From positions 2,790,001-2,854,000 of the forward strand of contig NZ_CP101456.1 of assembly GCF_024362485.1 (NCBI RefSeq): a stretch of DNA of 64,000 nt, in the 5' to 3' direction. Origin of the DNA: Natronobeatus ordinarius (GTDB lineage Archaea; Halobacteriota; Halobacteria; Halobacteriales; Natrialbaceae). The position numbers and the translations under genes were made by a program. Under the pieces are notes generated by a model. The model was not told the DNA's origin, made no database searches, and saw only the letters and a list, made by a program, of their open reading frames with translations. Below, piece after piece: positions 42,352 to 50,840 of the stretch (positions are counted from its first letter, which is position 1; every line of letters starts with the position of its first letter).

Positions 42352-43350
42352 TCAGGACAGCGAGAGCCCGCGAATCTCGACCGAGTCACCCTCCTCGACG
42401 CGGCCGATCACCTGCCCGTCGACGTCGGTGGCGAACGCCTCGGCCCGGTCGGCGGGGAGGGCGACCACGAAGCCGGTGCCCATGTTGAACGTCCGGTGCA
42501 TCTCCTCGTCGGAGACGTTCCCCTCCTCCTGGATAAACTCGAAGATCGGGTGGGCTGGCAGCGGATCGTCGATCACGTAGTGGCGCTCGCCCATCCGGAG
42601 CAGGTTCGTGAAGCCGCCGCCCGTGACGTGGGCCGCGGCGTGAACGCCGTGGTCGCGCATCGGCTCGAGCAGGGCCGTGTAGATCCGCGTCGGCGCGAGC
42701 AGTTCCTCGCCGATCGTGCGCTCGGGGTTGAGCGGGAACGGATCGGTGTACTCGTGATTTTGCGTCGCGGCCTCGCGGGCCAGCGTCAGTCCGTTCGAGT
42801 GGATGCCGTTCGAGGGGACGCCGACGAGGGCGTCGCCGACTTCGGCCTCGCCGTCGATCAACTCGTCTTTCTCGGCGAGTCCCGCACAGGTCCCCGCCAG
42901 GTCGAAGCCGTTGATGACCTCGGGCATGACCGCCGTCTCTCCGCCGAGGAGCGTGAGGTCGGCCTGCTCGAGTCCCACGGCCAGCCCCTCGCCGATCTCG
43001 GCAGTGAGGTCGTCGTCGGGTTCGTCGATCGCGAGGTAGTCGACGAACGCGACCGGAGTGACGCCGGCGGCGACGAGGTCGTTGACGTTCATCGCGATGC
43101 AGTCGATGCCGATCGTCGAGAAGTCCGAAATCGCCTCGGCGACGAGGAGTTTGGTCCCGACGCCGTCGGTCGCCAATGCGAGGTAGCGATCGCCGATGTC
43201 GAGCAGCCCGGCGTACTCCGTCGTGAGGCCGCTGCCGAACGCCTCGAGCAGTGCTGCTGTGGCGTCCTCGCTGGCCTCGATGTCCACGCCCGTCTCGGCG
43301 TAGGTGAGTCCCTCCGACTCGTCGGTCGCCTCCTCCGCGTTCTCGGTCAT
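42352..43350 (-). CDS. purM: Phosphoribosylformylglycinamidine cyclo-ligase (AIR synthetase)
   Basis: PurM closes the imidazole ring in purine synthesis. The 332 residues carry YAETGVDIEASEDA, TDGVGTKLLVAEA, NDLVAAGVTPVAFVDYLA, GGETAVMPEVI and AHVTGGGFTNLLRM, all standard. The ATG at 43350 gives the usual length. No other purine gene is adjacent. Confidence 0.95.
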   Translation of the reverse strand: MTENAEEATDESEGLTYAETGVDIEASEDATAALLEAFGSGLTTEYAGLLDIGDRYLALATDGVGTKLLVAEAISDFSTIGIDCIAMNVNDLVAAGVTPVAFVDYLAIDEPDDDLTAEIGEGLAVGLEQADLTLLGGETAVMPEVINGFDLAGTCAGLAEKDELIDGEAEVGDALVGVPSNGIHSNGLTLAREAATQNHEYTDPFPLNPERTIGEELLAPTRIYTALLEPMRDHGVHAAAHVTGGGFTNLLRMGERHYVIDDPLPAHPIFEFIQEEGNVSDEEMHRTFNMGTGFVVALPADRAEAFATDVDGQVIGRVEEGDSVEIRGLSLS

Positions 43351-43446
43351 GTCTGAACGACCAGTCGGGGCGAGCAAAAGGACACCGGTCCGTACTCGAG
43401 TCGGTCCGCCACCGCACTCCCGTTCCCATCGACGCGACGTCGGTTG

Positions 43447-44297
43447 ATGGGAACGGGAACCGACGGCCCGACCGTCGGACTCGTCGTCAACCCGGACGGC
43501 GGCGCGAGCGTCAGCGACAACTACGCGAAGCGCCGGACCGGCGAGTGCGTCCTCGCGGGCCCCGAACTCGCCGCCGATCCCGTCGAGGCGCTCGTGATGC
43601 CCGACCGGGCCTCGATCGGCCAGCGGCTCGCGTCGGCGCTCGAGGACGAGCCCGAGCGTCCTGTGGGCGTGCTTGAGCAGCCGGTGACGGGAACGGCCGA
43701 CGACACGGTCGCCGGGGCCGCGGCGGCGCTGCTCGCCACGGGGGCGGTCGATCCGACCGAGACGACCGTCCGCCACGGGACGGTCCGGGCGACGATCGGG
43801 TCGGGTGCATAAACGGAGACGATGACCGGACTGGCGACGATGGGGATCCTCGACCGGCCGTTCATCGGCACCCGGGCGATCCTCGACGCGAGCGAGTTCG
43901 TCGGCGCCGCCGTCTCGCGGGCGTTCCCGGCAGAGAGCAGTCTCTCGGGCGTCGCCGGCGGCCTCCTCCCGACCCGGCCGGACGACCCCGGCGGCGTCGG
44001 CCTCCGGTTCGGCCCCCGGGCGAGTGCGACCGTCGGGTCCGGGCGATAACGGTCCCTGGCGTCGTCTCCGAACTCGGGGTCGACGAGGGGCGACGGCTCG
44101 AGGCCGGCGACTCCTTCCCGTTCGAGGTCGAGCGGGGCGTCATCACCGCCGACGGCGAGCGCGAACGGGAGGTCTCGAACGCGACGGTCACGTTCGAGGT
44201 CCGCGACGAAGGGCCGCGGATCGTGGACGTCGAGGCCGTCTTCGAGGCGGCGGCCGACGCGAACGTCGTCGCCGCGGACCGGTCTCGGCCCCGTTAG
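43447..44297 (+). pseudogene. Decayed AcoX-type ATP-NAD kinase-like gene
   Basis: Three pieces of one family remain in order. Piece 1 (43447-43812) has GLVVNPDGGASVSDNYAKRR, VLAGPELAADPVEALVMPDR and LLATGAVDPTETTVRH, with a gap where the GGDGT catalytic block should be. Piece 2 (43822-44049) has ILDRPFIGTRAILDASEF and PDDPGGVGLRFG. Piece 3, in another frame up to TAG 44295-44297, has VPGVVSELGVDEGRRLEAGD and DGEREREVSNATVTFEV. Two stops and one frame change separate them. The gene cannot make an active enzyme. It lies between purM and a TnpB element. Confidence 0.8.
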
Positions 44298-44514: not shown

Positions 44515-44536
44515 CCACGGGTCACCTGACCCGTGG
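44515..44536. repeat. Left hairpin of the TnpB element
   Basis: CCACGGGTCA-CC-TGACCCGTGG, a perfect 10-bp stem, 53 nt before the tnpB ATG. The same stem recurs on the other side. Confidence 0.8.
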
Positions 44537-44589
44537 GTGAATGCCGACAAATCACTACACTTACAACGATTCACGACAATTTATTGACG

Positions 44590-45930
44590 ATGCAAGATGC
44601 AGGACTGACCCAGACGCTTTCTTTTGGATTAACCATCCAAACGGGTAGTCCTGACAACTTGTACGAAGGGTGTCTCGAAGCCCGACGAGTTCGCAACGAA
44701 GTCAACCGCCTCGACCGTGAGGGATGGGACTGGGACGACATCCACGACACCGTAGTGGATAACGCCAACCTCGTGAAAAACACGACTCAACTCCTCGTCC
44801 AGAAAGCACTGGGTGAGATAGAGACGTACCACGACCACAAAGACAACGAGTGGGGCCGACCGTTTCCCTACATTGACGAGACGTATCCAATGCGGATGAA
44901 TCACAACGAAGGATACGCCCTCACTGTAGATGATTCGGGAGATGTTCGCTTCAGAGTCAGTTACAAACCGTACAACCACGTCAAAGGCGTACTTCGCGGT
45001 AGTCCCAACCACCTCGAACGAGTCAAGAACGCTCTTAACTCTGACTCGTGGAGAGTGGGCGTAGCTGAACTCGTGTATAAACACGACGAATGGCGAGTAC
45101 ACGTCACAGTCACCCACAAGACACGCACCGTAGCGTCTCCAGACTACGCAGAGACAGTAGTTGGTGTGGACATTAACGAGGACTGCGTGGCACTCACCGC
45201 GCTGAATAGAGCTACTGGTGACGTACTCGATTCAGTCGTCATCGAGTACCCCGACATCAAACGAGTTCGCCACGAGTTTTTCACCAAACGGAAGCGGATG
45301 CAGAAAGTCGGACAATCCGCGTTCGAGAACGTGGTCCAAACCGAAGAACAAGACTTCGTTCACGACCAACTCCATAAAGTATCGCGCGACGTAACACGAT
45401 GGGTTTCGCAATTCAACGAACCGGTAATCGTCTTTGAAGACCTCAAAGACATGCGAGACTCAATCGATTACGGCACGCGAATGAACCGGCGCTTGCACTC
45501 CTTGCCGTTCGCCGCACTCCGAGATATGGTGACGTACAAAGCCGCTTGGGGTGGAATCCCCTCAGACGATGTTGACCCGGCGTACACGAGTCAACGCTGT
45601 CCGCGAACGGAATGCTTGCACACCGAGCGAGCGAATCGGCGTTGGAAGCGGTTCAAATGTATGGAGTGCGACTTCCAAGACCACGCTGACCGGAAAGCAG
45701 CGGTTTGTGTGGCGCAAGAATGGTTCCACGAGCAGAATGAGAATGTGCCGTCTCTCGAAACCCTTCCAAGTGTTCGGAAGGTGAGACGGACGGCATCGGG
45801 CCTGTGTGAAGAGGCCGACTCTCACGGAGCAGTTTTCGCTTCGGGTGTTTACCGACACGGAAAGTCGGCGCGAGACTCGCAGAGTCAAGCGCGAGAGGAA
45901 TTAAAGACCGTTGCCCCGACTACAGGGTAG
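44590..45930 (+). CDS. tnpB: RNA-guided endonuclease TnpB-family protein (IS1341-type)
   Basis: The 446-residue protein has the split RuvC nuclease: Asp194 in GVDINED, Glu283 in VFEDLKDM and Asp367 in HADRKAAVCVA, with the zinc finger CPRTEC (337-342) and CMEC (357-360) between the last two. All three acids and the four cysteines are present, so it could be active; the asparagine usual after the third Asp (DxNAA) is lysine here. TnpB uses a guide RNA encoded over the 3' end of its own gene. ATG 44590 is preferred to the upstream start at 44533, which lies in the hairpin region. Confidence 0.9.
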   Translation: MQDAGLTQTLSFGLTIQTGSPDNLYEGCLEARRVRNEVNRLDREGWDWDDIHDTVVDNANLVKNTTQLLVQKALGEIETYHDHKDNEWGRPFPYIDETYPMRMNHNEGYALTVDDSGDVRFRVSYKPYNHVKGVLRGSPNHLERVKNALNSDSWRVGVAELVYKHDEWRVHVTVTHKTRTVASPDYAETVVGVDINEDCVALTALNRATGDVLDSVVIEYPDIKRVRHEFFTKRKRMQKVGQSAFENVVQTEEQDFVHDQLHKVSRDVTRWVSQFNEPVIVFEDLKDMRDSIDYGTRMNRRLHSLPFAALRDMVTYKAAWGGIPSDDVDPAYTSQRCPRTECLHTERANRRWKRFKCMECDFQDHADRKAAVCVAQEWFHEQNENVPSLETLPSVRKVRRTASGLCEEADSHGAVFASGVYRHGKSARDSQSQAREELKTVAPTTG

Positions 45931-46127: not shown

Positions 46128-47441
46128 TCACCGACCAACGCGTAGCCACACGGGGCCGTCGGGACGACACGTGAGCGCGGGCGTCGGCGTCAACTCCGTC
46201 TCGGGCGTCGCCTCGAGTCGGACCGACCGAAGGATCGTCGCGACGGCGAGTCGAAGCTCGAGCAGCGCGAACCGGCGGCCGATACACTGGCGCTCCCCGC
46301 CGCCGAACGGGAAGTAGGCGAACGCCGGTCGGTCCTCGCGTCGCTCGGGTTCGAACCGCTCGGGTCGGAACGCGAGCGGGTCGTCGTAGTAGCGGTCGCT
46401 GCGGTGGATCGACCACTGGGGGAGGACGACGCGGGTGTCCGCGGGCACCTCGTAGCCGGCGACCGTATCGGGCTCGACCGTTCGCCGGTGGAGCATGTAC
46501 GCCGGCGGGTAGAGCCGGAGCGCCTCGCTGATCGCGCGGTCGGTGTGTGGCAGGGCCGTCCCCGGCGTGAGCTCGGCCGGCTCGCGAACCTCCGCCACTA
46601 CCCGATCCAGTTCGTCGGGGTGGGTCGCGAGGAGTCCAAGCGTGTACGTCAGGGCGATCGCGGTCGTCTCGTGGCCGGCCAGCAGCATGGTCACGAGGTG
46701 ATCGCGGACCTCGCGATCGGTGATTGATCCGGCCTCCCCGGCCGACAGCAGCGCCGAACACAGGTCGGGTCGATCGCCGTCGCTCGCGTCTCCGGACCGT
46801 CGCCGGCGGAGGATCGCCCCGACGACGTCGTCGAGTTCGCCGATCGCGCGCCGGTACCGCCGGTTTGCCGGCGTCGGCACCCACAGCGGGAGCTCCATCG
46901 GCACGCTCGAGGGCTCGAACCGCCGCGCGATGGCCGTCGCGGCGCCGGCGATCACCCCCGTCTCCTCGACGTCGTCGACGCCGAACATCGTCTTCGCGAC
47001 GATCGAGAGCGTGAGCCGGGTCGCCGCCTCGTGGACGTCGATCCGTTCACCGTCCGTCCAGCCCTCGACCAGCCGCCGGCTCCGCTCGAGCATGACCTGT
47101 GCGTACGCCTCGAGTCGCCCCGGGTAGAACGCGGGCTGGACGTGCTCGCGCCCCCGTTCCCAGGTGTCGCCGTGGGACGTGAGCAGGCCGTCCCCGAGCA
47201 GTTCCCCGAGGACGTCGCGTTCGCGGGGGTCCTTTCGGTATCGGTCCGATCGATCGACCAGCGCCCGTTCGACCAGGTCGGCGTCGGCGTAACAGACGAA
47301 CGAGAGCCCGGGGATCGAGACGCGGAACACCGGACCGTGGGTCTTCGGCGCCTCCTCCATGAACCGAAACGGGTCGCGTCGAACCTCGAGCGCGCTGCCG
47401 AGCAGGGGGAGTCGATCCGTGGTTGGAACGTTCCCAGCCAT
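46128..47441 (-). CDS. Cytochrome P450
   Basis: The 437-residue heme monooxygenase has the I-helix motif AGHETT (255-260), ExxR as EALR (306-309), the PERF block and the heme-binding FPFGGGERQCIGRRF with Cys386. Everything needed for heme binding and oxygen activation is present. The substrate is unknown; haloarchaeal P450s of this type are often near carotenoid or fatty-acid genes but none is here. It is divergent from an HTH-10 regulator with 90 nt between. Confidence 0.95.
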   Translation of the reverse strand: MAGNVPTTDRLPLLGSALEVRRDPFRFMEEAPKTHGPVFRVSIPGLSFVCYADADLVERALVDRSDRYRKDPRERDVLGELLGDGLLTSHGDTWERGREHVQPAFYPGRLEAYAQVMLERSRRLVEGWTDGERIDVHEAATRLTLSIVAKTMFGVDDVEETGVIAGAATAIARRFEPSSVPMELPLWVPTPANRRYRRAIGELDDVVGAILRRRRSGDASDGDRPDLCSALLSAGEAGSITDREVRDHLVTMLLAGHETTAIALTYTLGLLATHPDELDRVVAEVREPAELTPGTALPHTDRAISEALRLYPPAYMLHRRTVEPDTVAGYEVPADTRVVLPQWSIHRSDRYYDDPLAFRPERFEPERREDRPAFAYFPFGGGERQCIGRRFALLELRLAVATILRSVRLEATPETELTPTPALTCRPDGPVWLRVGR

Positions 47442-47492
47442 GTCTCCACGTACGCCCGAGCCACGACTGGTTCTGCTGCCGGTCTGGACCGG

Positions 47493-47501
47493 CGATTTAA
47501 C
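47493..47501 (+). promoter_or_regulatory. TATA box in the P450/regulator spacer
   Basis: CGATTTAAC precedes ATG 47532 by about 31-39 nt. The spacer is shared with the P450 promoter on the other strand. Confidence 0.4.
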
Positions 47502-47531
47502 TTCTATCCCGACGAAATCGGTCGCGACGAG

Positions 47532-48173
47532 ATGGAGTACGCCAGGCTCCGAATCGAACTACCGTCCGTCGAGACGCCGGTCACGACGCTCGCCGCGACC
47601 GACGGCGTCGGGGCGATCTACCTGCTGGCGGGTGGGGTCGCAGACACCGACACGCCGACGTACACGCTCTCGATCGAGGCCCCGGCCGAGACCGTCCGGG
47701 AGGTGCTCGAGGCCGACCCCGACGTCCGCTCGTGGGAGCTCTCGAGCGTCGAGTCGGGCGTCGTCTACGCCTACGTCCGGTTTCGAGCCCCGCCGGGGAT
47801 CGCCGAGATCCGAGAGCGGTTCACCCGGGACAGCCTCGTGGTGGTGCTCCCCGCGACGTTTCGCGCCGACGGCGTCGAGCTCACCGTCGTCGGGACGGGG
47901 TCGGATCTCTCGCGGGCCGTCGAGTCGCTTCCACCGTCTCTCGAGATCACCGTCCTCGAGATCGGTACCTACCGCGACGGCGTCCACCGCGGGCGCTCAC
48001 TGACCGACCGTCAGCGGGAGGTCCTCGCCGTCGCCCACGAACTGGGCTACTACGAGCAGCCGAGCGAGACGAGCCACGAGGAGATCGCCGACGTCCTCGA
48101 CTGTGCCCCCAGCACGGTCGGCGAACACCTGCGGAAGGCCGAGAAACGGCTGGTGAGCGACGTGTTCGACTGA
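47532..48173 (+). CDS. HTH-10 (Bat-like) transcriptional regulator
   Basis: The 213-residue protein has an N-terminal mixed domain (about 1-150) and a C-terminal HTH-10 DNA-binding domain (LTDRQREVLAVAHELGYYEQ then DCAPSTVGEHLRKAEKRLV), the type first seen in bacterio-opsin activator. These regulators sense small molecules or redox state by the N-terminal part. The divergent P450 is the obvious candidate target. ATG 47532 follows the TATA box. Confidence 0.85.
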   Translation: MEYARLRIELPSVETPVTTLAATDGVGAIYLLAGGVADTDTPTYTLSIEAPAETVREVLEADPDVRSWELSSVESGVVYAYVRFRAPPGIAEIRERFTRDSLVVVLPATFRADGVELTVVGTGSDLSRAVESLPPSLEITVLEIGTYRDGVHRGRSLTDRQREVLAVAHELGYYEQPSETSHEEIADVLDCAPSTVGEHLRKAEKRLVSDVFD

Positions 48174-48199: not shown

Positions 48200-48757
48200 T
48201 TACGAGGACCGCTCCACGGCCAGTTCGGTTTTCACCGGAACCTCGTTCGCGACGATATCGATCAGCGGGGAGGTCGCCTCGACCCGTTCTTTGAGTTCGT
48301 CGAGTTGGTCCTCGGAGGCGTCCGTCTCGAGGTGCGTGGTGCACGTCACCTCGTTGTAGCCGGGGCGGGTGTCCTCGTCGATTCCGAGGAAGCCCCGGAG
48401 ATCGACGTCGCCTTCCAGTTCGAACCGGAGGTCGTCGAGCTCGATGTCCATCGCCGCGGCGTGTGCCGCGTAACCGACGCTCAGACACGATCCGAGCGCC
48501 GCGAGCAGCAGTTCGACGGCGTTCGGTGCGGTTCGCTCGCCGAGGATCTGCTCCGGTTCGTCGCCCTCGACGCGGAACTCCTCCGTTCGAATTCGCTCCC
48601 CGGCCTGGTCGAACTCGTCGATCGAGGTTACGCACTTCAGCCCGTCGGTCCACTCGGTTTCGGCGAAAAACCGGAACTGACCGACGTCCGGGTTCTCCGT
48701 GATCGCGTCGATCGCGTCGCCCAGCTGCTGTACGTCTACGCCGTTTTTCACTGACAT
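48200..48757 (-). CDS. OsmC family protein (single conserved cysteine)
   Basis: The 185-residue OsmC/Ohr-fold protein has APNAVELLLAALGSCLSVGY with Cys91 at the first peroxidatic position, and CTTHLETDASEDQLDELKER. The second cysteine of classical Ohr/OsmC peroxidases is missing (TSPLIDIVANEVPV at that place). It may use a different resolving thiol or act as a thiol-binding protein. Next gene upstream on the same strand is an E2-OsmC fusion, 168 nt away. Confidence 0.85.
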   Translation of the reverse strand: MSVKNGVDVQQLGDAIDAITENPDVGQFRFFAETEWTDGLKCVTSIDEFDQAGERIRTEEFRVEGDEPEQILGERTAPNAVELLLAALGSCLSVGYAAHAAAMDIELDDLRFELEGDVDLRGFLGIDEDTRPGYNEVTCTTHLETDASEDQLDELKERVEATSPLIDIVANEVPVKTELAVERSS

Positions 48758-48924: not shown

Positions 48925-50736
48925 CTACGTCCGCGACCAGGCGAGATTCATCTCGAGGTCCTCACGCAACAGCTCCGCGACGTGGCAGGTCCGCTCGCCG
49001 CCGGCGACGATCCGCTCGAGCGCGTCGTCGTCGACGTCGTCTTCGACGTCGAGACGGACGTCGATCGTGATCGCCTCGACGGACTCGTTTCCGTCTGCGG
49101 GCGCCCCGACGACTCCGACGTCGATCCCGCTGAAGTCGACGTCGCGCATGTCCGCCTGAATGCCGATGCTGGCGGCGAGGCAGGCCGAGAGGGCGCCGAG
49201 GAAGTAGTCCACGGGCGTCGGCGCGCGGCCGCCGCCCCACTCGGGCGTGACGTCGAAGGGCCACTCGGCGCTCCCGGCGGCGACGCTCCCCGAGAGGTCC
49301 GGCCGGACGTGCGCCGTCACGTCGCGCTCCGGGAGTTCTGCGACGGCCGCAGCGGCTCCATCGTCGCGCCAGTGCACGTCGGACGGGACGTCCGCGGGCG
49401 TCACGCCCTCGAGCAGCGGCCAGGGTTCCTCGAGGTGGCCGACGAGCGTCTCGAGGAAGCGTGCGGCGTCGGCGCCGTCGACGAGCCGGTGGTCGAACGA
49501 GAGGGAAAGCGGGAGCGTCCGCCGAACGACGACCTCGCCGTTCCGGGCGACGGGCCGTTCGTCGAGGGCGTTGACGCCCAGAATGGCGACCTGGGGCGGG
49601 TTGATCACGGGGTCGAACGACTCGACGCCGAGCAGGCCGAGGTTCGAGATCGTGAACGTCCCGCCACGCAGGTCGTCCATCGTGTACTGCCCCGAGAGCG
49701 CCCGGTCGGTCATCGTCGCGCGCTTTCTCGCCAGTTCGTCGATCTCGAGGTCGTCGACGCCGCGGATCACCGGCGCGAGGAGCCCGTCCTCGACGTCGAC
49801 GGCGACACAGAGGTTGTGCTCGCCGTGGAGGCGGTGGACGTCCTCCTCGAACGTCGCGTTGAACGCGGGATGGTCCTCGAGCGCCGCCGAGATGGCGGCC
49901 AGCAGCACGTCGGTGACCGTGACCGACTCGTCGTGGACGGCGGCCGCGGCCTTCGCGGCGGCCCGCAGCGCCTCGGCGTCCGCCACCCGGTGTTCGGTGA
50001 CGTGGACCGCCTCGCGATAGCTCTGGCCCAGCCGAGAGGCGATCGTCCGTCGCATGCCGTCGAGGGGGCGTTCCTCGATGCCCTCGATTCTGTCCTCGGC
50101 CGCGGCCTCGACGTCCGCTTCCGTGATCGACCCCTTTGGTCCCGTCCCGTCGACCGACGCGAGGTCGACACCGAGCTCGTCGGCGCGCTTGCGGGCTCGC
50201 GGTGACGCCTTCACGTCTTCGATCGTCTCACCCTCTGTCTCGGCCGCGGCCTCGACGTCTTCCTCCGTGATCGATCCCTGCGGCCCCGTTCCGTCGACCG
50301 ACGCGAGGTCGACGCCGAGTTCGTCGGCACGTTTGCGGGCTCGCGGTGACGCCTTCACGTCTTCGCTCGAGGCCGCCGCCTCCGTCGTCGCCTCGGCGTC
50401 CGGCGTCGGAGCTTCGACGCCTGCAGCTGCCTCGGTCGCCGCCTCAGCGTCCGGCACCTCGCCCTCGAGCGACGCCTCGAGATCGGAAATGTCTGCGTCC
50501 GCCTCGGCGACGATCCCCATCGGCGCGCCCGGCTCGGCGGACTCGCCCTCCTCGAGAAGCCGGCGTCGCAACACCCCGTTCTCCCGGGCTTCCACCTTTC
50601 CGGTGGTCTTCTCGGATTCGATCTCCGCGATCACGTCGCCCGCCTCGACCGCCTCGCCCTCCTCGACGAACCAGGCCGTGACCGTCCCCGAATCCATCTC
50701 GAGCCCGAGTTTGGGGATCTTGACTACGTATCCCAT
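48925..50736 (-). CDS. Dihydrolipoamide acyltransferase (E2) fused to an OsmC peroxidase domain
   Basis: The 603-residue protein has, in order: a lipoyl domain (1-78, Lys43 in ESEKTTG); two near-identical peripheral-subunit-binding domains (about 125-163 and 174-212); the E2 catalytic domain (222-445) with the active His416 in HRLVDG; and an OsmC domain (about 465-603) with Cys519 (GALSACLAASIGI) and Cys584 (GERTCHVAELL), both positions needed for a two-cysteine peroxidase. No E1 or E3 gene is adjacent. Ohr/OsmC enzymes are known to be reduced by dihydrolipoamide, so the fusion would put the peroxidase on the same chain as its electron donor. ATG 50736 is 25-33 nt after a TATA box. Confidence 0.9.
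   Translation of the reverse strand: MGYVVKIPKLGLEMDSGTVTAWFVEEGEAVEAGDVIAEIESEKTTGKVEARENGVLRRRLLEEGESAEPGAPMGIVAEADADISDLEASLEGEVPDAEAATEAAAGVEAPTPDAEATTEAAASSEDVKASPRARKRADELGVDLASVDGTGPQGSITEEDVEAAAETEGETIEDVKASPRARKRADELGVDLASVDGTGPKGSITEADVEAAAEDRIEGIEERPLDGMRRTIASRLGQSYREAVHVTEHRVADAEALRAAAKAAAAVHDESVTVTDVLLAAISAALEDHPAFNATFEEDVHRLHGEHNLCVAVDVEDGLLAPVIRGVDDLEIDELARKRATMTDRALSGQYTMDDLRGGTFTISNLGLLGVESFDPVINPPQVAILGVNALDERPVARNGEVVVRRTLPLSLSFDHRLVDGADAARFLETLVGHLEEPWPLLEGVTPADVPSDVHWRDDGAAAAVAELPERDVTAHVRPDLSGSVAAGSAEWPFDVTPEWGGGRAPTPVDYFLGALSACLAASIGIQADMRDVDFSGIDVGVVGAPADGNESVEAITIDVRLDVEDDVDDDALERIVAGGERTCHVAELLREDLEMNLAWSRT
50100..50365. repeat. Tandem duplication of the E3-binding domain (144-bp period)
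   Basis: Two copies of about 122 nt (50100-50221 and 50244-50365) encode the KASPRARKRADELGVDLASV domain; they differ at few bases, so the duplication looks recent or homogenised. Confidence 0.85.
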
Positions 50737-50760: not shown

Positions 50761-50769
50761 GTATAAAGG
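50761..50769 (-). promoter_or_regulatory. TATA box of the E2-OsmC gene
   Basis: On the minus strand CCTTTATAC lies 25-33 nt before ATG 50736, which implies a leaderless transcript. Confidence 0.6.
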
Positions 50770-50840
50770 CGCTGAGCGGCGTGAGCCCTCGACGAGGGGT
50801 GAGGAGAGCATTATGCGTGTCGGTGGCGAAGGCTAGCGCT

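Follow-up and report, generated by a model that had tools for sequence, protein, structure and literature searches.

The window, a 64,000-nucleotide stretch of the Natronobeatus ordinarius genome (NZ_CP101456.1, positions 2,790,001 to 2,854,000), carries on its reverse strand a single frame that joins an E2 acyltransferase to a C-terminal OsmC domain. The frame runs from an ATG at 50736 to a TAG at 48927-48925, with an in-frame ATG at 50811 as an alternative, longer start. The sequence TTTATA upstream and the ATG at 50736 would fit a leaderless haloarchaeal transcript. The genes and domains of the locus are:

42352-43431, reverse strand: purM-like gene (Pfam AIRS); borders the E1 operon in the relative G223 and marks the point at which E1-alpha and E1-beta were deleted
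43444-44282, forward strand: AcoX-like (ATP-NAD-kinase family) pseudogene directly after the purM-like gene; remnant of the lost E1-alpha, E1-beta, AcoX operon
44533-45930, forward strand: TnpB-like protein (Cas12f1-like TNB domain), encoded where the operon once lay
46128-47441, reverse strand, and 47031-48173, forward strand: cytochrome P450 gene and HTH_10 (HVO_0513-type) regulator, on the stretch that separates the fusion from the AcoX remnant
48200-48757, reverse strand: free-standing OsmC gene on the strand of the fusion, which it follows downstream; second cysteine absent
48925-50736, reverse strand: E2-OsmC fusion gene, 603 aa, one intact frame
50497-50736, reverse strand: lipoyl domain, residues 1-80 (Pfam Biotin_lipoyl 5-74, 1.1e-13); Lys43 codon at 50608-50610
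50095-50358, reverse strand: a near-identical pair of peripheral-subunit (E3/E1)-binding domains, at residues about 127-166 and 175-214 (Pfam E3_binding twice, 4.7e-31); the repeat is seen in the sequence
49402-50091, reverse strand: acyltransferase core, residues 216-445 (Pfam 2-oxoacid_dh 221-442, 1.1e-69); motif DHRLVDG, His416 codon at 49489-49491; matches E2-core folds
48928-49266, reverse strand: OsmC domain, residues about 491-603 (Pfam OsmC 501-597, 2.3e-14); Cys519 codon at 49180-49182, Cys584 codon at 48985-48987
50762-50767, reverse strand: putative TATA-like box TTTATA, read in the sequence, 28 nt before the ATG at 50736

All Pfam matches of the fusion protein exceed the curated cut-offs. 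Together with the intact 603-residue frame they bear out the initial annotation, which had read lipoyl, double binding, E2 core and OsmC domains in one frame and had placed Lys43, His416, Cys519 and Cys584 correctly. Three features of a 2-oxoacid dehydrogenase E2 are present: a predicted lipoylatable lysine (motif ESEK43T), a peripheral-subunit-binding domain and the DHRxxDG histidine. The relative placement of the domains is unsure in the predicted full-length model (pTM 0.53). The free-standing OsmC gene looks like a member of another OsmC subfamily and not a copy of the fused domain.

The genomic setting of the fusion is best appreciated in relatives. In 14-kb neighbourhoods of 34 fused loci, E1-alpha and/or E1-beta genes lie near 32 (about 5 kb off at L068), the two others being those of G029 and G175, and E1 genes are found near all full-length fusions at named loci. 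The E1 genes are mostly convergent with the fused gene and usually accompanied by a third gene, of the ATP-NAD-kinase family, which we call AcoX-like on the strength of family and position (the intact gene matches Pfam NAD_kinase). The E1-alpha of these relatives matches PF00676 and the E1-beta matches transketolase domains. Nearly all of the main fused group has the AcoX-like gene, which was not found in a divergent fused group (G108, G119, G308, G312, G175 and G232). The initial annotation had noted that no E1 or E3 gene adjoins the fusion, which holds for the window and not for the relatives; its conclusion that the partners act in trans fails as a general statement, since E1 is encoded next door in relatives and has been deleted here.

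Other E2 loci show further arrangements. Beside the E1 genes at L073:5798-7312, L076:5142-6446, L077:5492-6838 and L082:5784-7280 stands an E2 in which the DHRxxDG histidine is replaced (YDTR, YDAR) and the lipoyl lysine kept; these proteins are apparently dead acyltransferases. L082 and its kin (L210-L212) have OsmC as a separate 195-residue frame beside the E1 operon. A pair of 2-oxoacid:ferredoxin oxidoreductase-like genes adjoins the E2 gene at ten loci of the window's family (L037-L040, L042, L043, L047, L050, L051 and L082), and others (L040, L057) have glyoxalase-like and GST-like genes as neighbours. At L075:5880-7673, L083:4712-6571, L084:5061-6815 and L085:4258-6144 the E2 has a different C-terminal extension (around YAACRESxYxDxI) and adjoins acyl-CoA dehydrogenase-like and acyl-CoA ligase-like genes.

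In the closest relative that has the cluster (G223), the gene order is purM, E1-alpha, E1-beta, AcoX, E2-OsmC. No remnant of E1-alpha or E1-beta was found in the window, and a dedicated E1 is absent from the genome, where the best E1-alpha elsewhere has only 45% identity. The AcoX pseudogene, interrupted by a TAA, a frameshift and deletions, survives in pieces 64-80% identical to the intact G223 gene (78-80% in the longer pieces). Loss of both E1 genes, together with the decay of AcoX, thus marks the window gene as the orphaned E2 of an acetoin/PDH-type complex. Since the longer pieces of the remnant are still so similar, the E1 loss looks recent, and the intact E2-OsmC frame proves little on its own.

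The frame could accordingly be a relic in this organism that has merely not yet decayed, as the missing E1 genes, the AcoX pseudogene and the TnpB-type and other genes now lying in between would suggest; G029, with the same losses, has an eroded lipoyl part. We consider this distinctly unlikely, however, because the 603 codons contain no stop or frameshift, a TATA-like box precedes the ATG and the OsmC domain outlives the complex repeatedly elsewhere (see below). Moreover, domain by domain, the window protein is as far from ten outgroups as is the protein of E1-bearing G223 (OsmC identity, for example, 0.570 versus 0.567), giving no sign yet of relaxed constraint. We also considered the E1 loss as a sign of E1-independent function in the window genome, and set this aside as weak given that the loss looks recent and the rates equal those of G223. 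The genome does encode a lipoate/biotin ligase family protein and, next to PDH genes, an E3, so that reduction of the lipoyl arm without a cognate E1 is possible.

A search for the same domain order in other Halobacteria, proposed in the initial annotation, found it widely. Whole-protein and OsmC-domain searches of 391 Halobacteria genomes, one per species, identified 51 fused E2-OsmC proteins in 50 genomes from about 23 genera (genera and fusions were counted by hand from the OsmC-domain search table, and the 51 include G029, which is without the lipoyl part). Named carriers include Halalkalirubrum salinum, Natronocalculus amylovorans, Natribaculum breve, Halogranum rubrum and Halorubrum salsamenti. 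In a phylum-wide sample, matches came only from Halobacteria genomes already in hand; a plasmid search gave no OsmC fusion among the matches listed, mostly E2 parts being matched, and bacteria were scanned by exact motif patterns only. The identical domain order, at full length and free of stops in many other genomes, shows that the fusion is not a frameshift or assembly artefact. In an alignment of 50 rows, representing 48 distinct fused proteins because two genomes were fetched twice, Cys519, Cys584 and His416 are present in 50/50 and Lys43 in 49/50, the sole exception being the G029 row. Judged by these sequences, the E2-OsmC fusion is real and conserved across haloarchaea.

The OsmC domain is predicted to fold as OsmC (AlphaFold2 pLDDT 86.7), and Foldseek matched its model to OsmC, Ohr and YhfA structures (1ml8, 1nye and 1lql), with E values down to 3.9e-8 and TM scores up to 0.76. 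The lowest-r.m.s.d. solved fold is YhfA (1ml8, 1.7 Å), and the best sequence match is Thermoplasma Ta0195 (2onf). In Ohr, an arginine and a glutamate activate the peroxidatic cysteine, the R19A and E51A variants keeping only residual dihydrolipoamide-dependent activity (PMC5962072). In a gapless alignment, the position of XfOhr Glu51 is occupied by Val509 in the window protein, and the adjacent position, Asp510, is acidic in 50/50 rows. The position of XfOhr Arg19, judged by eye, has no conserved arginine; elsewhere Arg471 is found in 45/50 rows and Arg582 in 48/50. Two cysteines without the Arg/Glu pair form a pattern that fits YhfA proteins, which likewise have both cysteines, are without the arginine and glutamate and have no known activity (PMC8945050, PMC5962072).

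Since the Ohr pair does not appear to be conserved, the chemistry of the domain may not be peroxide reduction at all. The OsmC domain might instead have another YhfA-type thiol function, such as disulfide exchange, the handling of reactive E1/E2 by-products or assembly through OsmC dimerization. The 1ml8 fold, the shared residue pattern and Val509 in place of Glu51 all point this way. For a purely structural role, however, the invariance of both cysteines would be unnecessary, and the acidic Asp510 and the Arg582 near Cys584 could serve as activating residues. We give this account a minority share of our confidence, and peroxide reduction by the fused domain is no more than a reasonable guess. 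The initial annotation's idea of a lipoyl-dependent peroxidase is thus only partly sustained: the fusion has all the residues needed for a lipoyl-reduced two-cysteine enzyme, but the Ohr glutamate is replaced and no conserved arginine is seen at the Ohr position.

That annotation had gone further, proposing that the swinging lipoyl arm reduces the fused OsmC domain directly. Were OsmC dependent on the arm in cis, one would expect every protein that keeps a fused OsmC domain to keep the lipoyl lysine too. Shortened relatives bear on this prediction. The 391 genomes encode 15 short, intact proteins that belong to this OsmC family, ten of which, along with one protein from a metagenome-assembled genome, consist of a lipoyl-like domain and OsmC without the E2 core (L204-L209, L213-L216 and L142). 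In these core-less forms the lipoyl lysine is found in 0/11 and both cysteines in 11/11. Pfam still recognizes the lipoyl-like domain in 7/7 tested, with one match falling short of the curated cut-off, and simple Nei-Gojobori estimates for four core-less pairs (dN/dS 0.20-0.43 for OsmC, 0.24-0.57 for the lipoyl-like part) indicate purifying selection. Of the ten genomes with a core-less form, only G317 encodes a full E2-OsmC as well; the other nine have neither AcoX nor a full-length E2 of this type. G029 keeps the core and an OsmC domain that is not accelerated; its lipoyl part is eroded, its lysine lost, and E1 and AcoX are gone as well. G297 has a second OsmC-domain copy, which is broken and contains one TAG (L217:6593-6982, reverse strand).

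In an OsmC tree the family forms one clade (100/100) in which the short forms are scattered, requiring nine changes, at least five of them forced by well-supported branches; as the tree covers a single domain of 133 columns with many forks open, these counts hold only under it. The family probably shrank, then, in at least five separate changes. Loss has also run in the other direction. Thirteen Haloferax-type E2s, mostly encoded next to E1 and AcoX genes, have no OsmC domain, and they are nested among the fused proteins in the core tree (SH-aLRT support only), suggesting one loss of OsmC. Hence OsmC is not essential to the complex.

Because the lysine is absent from the 11 core-less forms and G029 while both cysteines stay, the lysine appears to follow the E2 reaction and the cysteines to follow OsmC. 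The ordinary E1/E2 reaction accounts for Lys43 being conserved in intact fusions, and we rejected this conservation as support for coupling between arm and OsmC. Comparison across the family shows that loss of the E2 core, the lipoyl lysine and the complex leaves the OsmC unit in place, its two cysteines included. These results weaken the proposal of a self-reducing peroxidase, in which the protein's own arm is the dedicated reductant of Cys519-Cys584, so that the complex hands electrons from substrate or NADH directly to peroxide, with or without bypass of E3. The proposal draws on the presence of all parts in one chain, conserved together in the 48 distinct proteins, on the ligase and PDH-linked E3 genes and on the retention of Lys43 in the window gene, without acceleration, after E1 was lost. 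It also has precedent: Lpd/SucB reduce free Ohr in Corynebacterium glutamicum (PMC4486171), and lipoylated proteins reduce XfOhr (PMC8945050), in line with the background given in the initial annotation. Given the lysine-less relatives, the alternative explanation for Lys43, the apparent lack of the Arg/Glu pair and the survival of the complex without OsmC throughout the Haloferax-type clade, we nonetheless judge it unlikely.

We favour, at a probability of about one half, the reading that the protein is the E2 of an acetoin/PDH-type complex, orphaned here, that carries a YhfA-like two-cysteine OsmC domain acting as a dithiol oxidant-clearing enzyme for which the arm in cis is not required. 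Cys519 would be oxidized by a hydroperoxide or related oxidant, form a disulfide with Cys584 and be reduced again by a dithiol, so removing oxidants where the complex is. The nearest dithiol in an intact complex would be the dihydrolipoyl arms, which could probably reduce OsmC; own or foreign arms and other nearby dithiols may all serve, donors in trans included. A plausible benefit is the clearing of peroxides or peracids that arise when the thiamine intermediate of E1 meets oxygen. OsmC would then be a dithiol enzyme that rides on an E2 yet can be separated from it, with reduction by the cis arm possible but dispensable. In the window organism OsmC is most likely still a thiol enzyme, with the lipoyl arm available and E1 gone. 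More doubtful is an extended version, in which E2-OsmC passes electrons to peroxide on the spot and haloarchaea repeatedly derived from it a stand-alone, lysine-less lipoyl-like-OsmC protein, the former arm domain being repurposed, for example, to dock OsmC to E1, E3 or foreign lipoyl domains.

The protein resembles several known systems without coinciding with any. With the E2s of acetoin/PDH-type complexes (the haloarchaeal oadh3-like cluster and bacterial acoABCX) it shares the lipoyl and peripheral-subunit-binding domains and the DHRxxDG core, and genes for E1-alpha, E1-beta and an AcoX-like protein accompany those of its relatives; it differs in its extra C-terminal OsmC domain and in having no partner E1 in the genome. 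Haloferax oadhAB3 (HVO_0669/0668) is 54%/47% identical to the Bacillus subtilis acetoin E1 (PMC8305020) and probably represents the same cluster as the fusion-associated E1 genes. With Ohr/OsmC hydroperoxide reductases the fused domain has the fold and two-cysteine pattern in common, whereas it has valine at the Glu51 position, no conserved arginine at the Arg position and is fused rather than free. It shares two cysteines, the apparent absence of the Arg/Glu pair and the closest fold with the YhfA subfamily, but finds its best sequence match in Ta0195 and is joined to an E2. In the 400-residue protein 9wo1, too, OsmC (278-390) forms the C-terminal portion of a longer chain, with no E2; its N-terminal part we take to be an alpha/beta hydrolase. 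In Trichomonas, an OsmC protein occurs alongside a glycine decarboxylase complex that is incomplete (Nyvltova 2016, cited in PMC10332631), tying OsmC to the lipoyl proteins of a partial complex much as in the orphaned window case; as far as the title of that study tells, the proteins are separate there, whereas here they are one polypeptide.

We found no paper in the literature on an E2-OsmC fusion. Reduction of Ohr/OsmC by lipoylated E2 is known between separate proteins; here, both are one polypeptide in dozens of haloarchaea. The natural variants, in which the arm, the core or OsmC is lost or the gene is split, form a ready-made deletion series for the role of the arm in OsmC function, and the same series could reveal the reaction catalysed by a YhfA-type domain that has no Arg/Glu pair.
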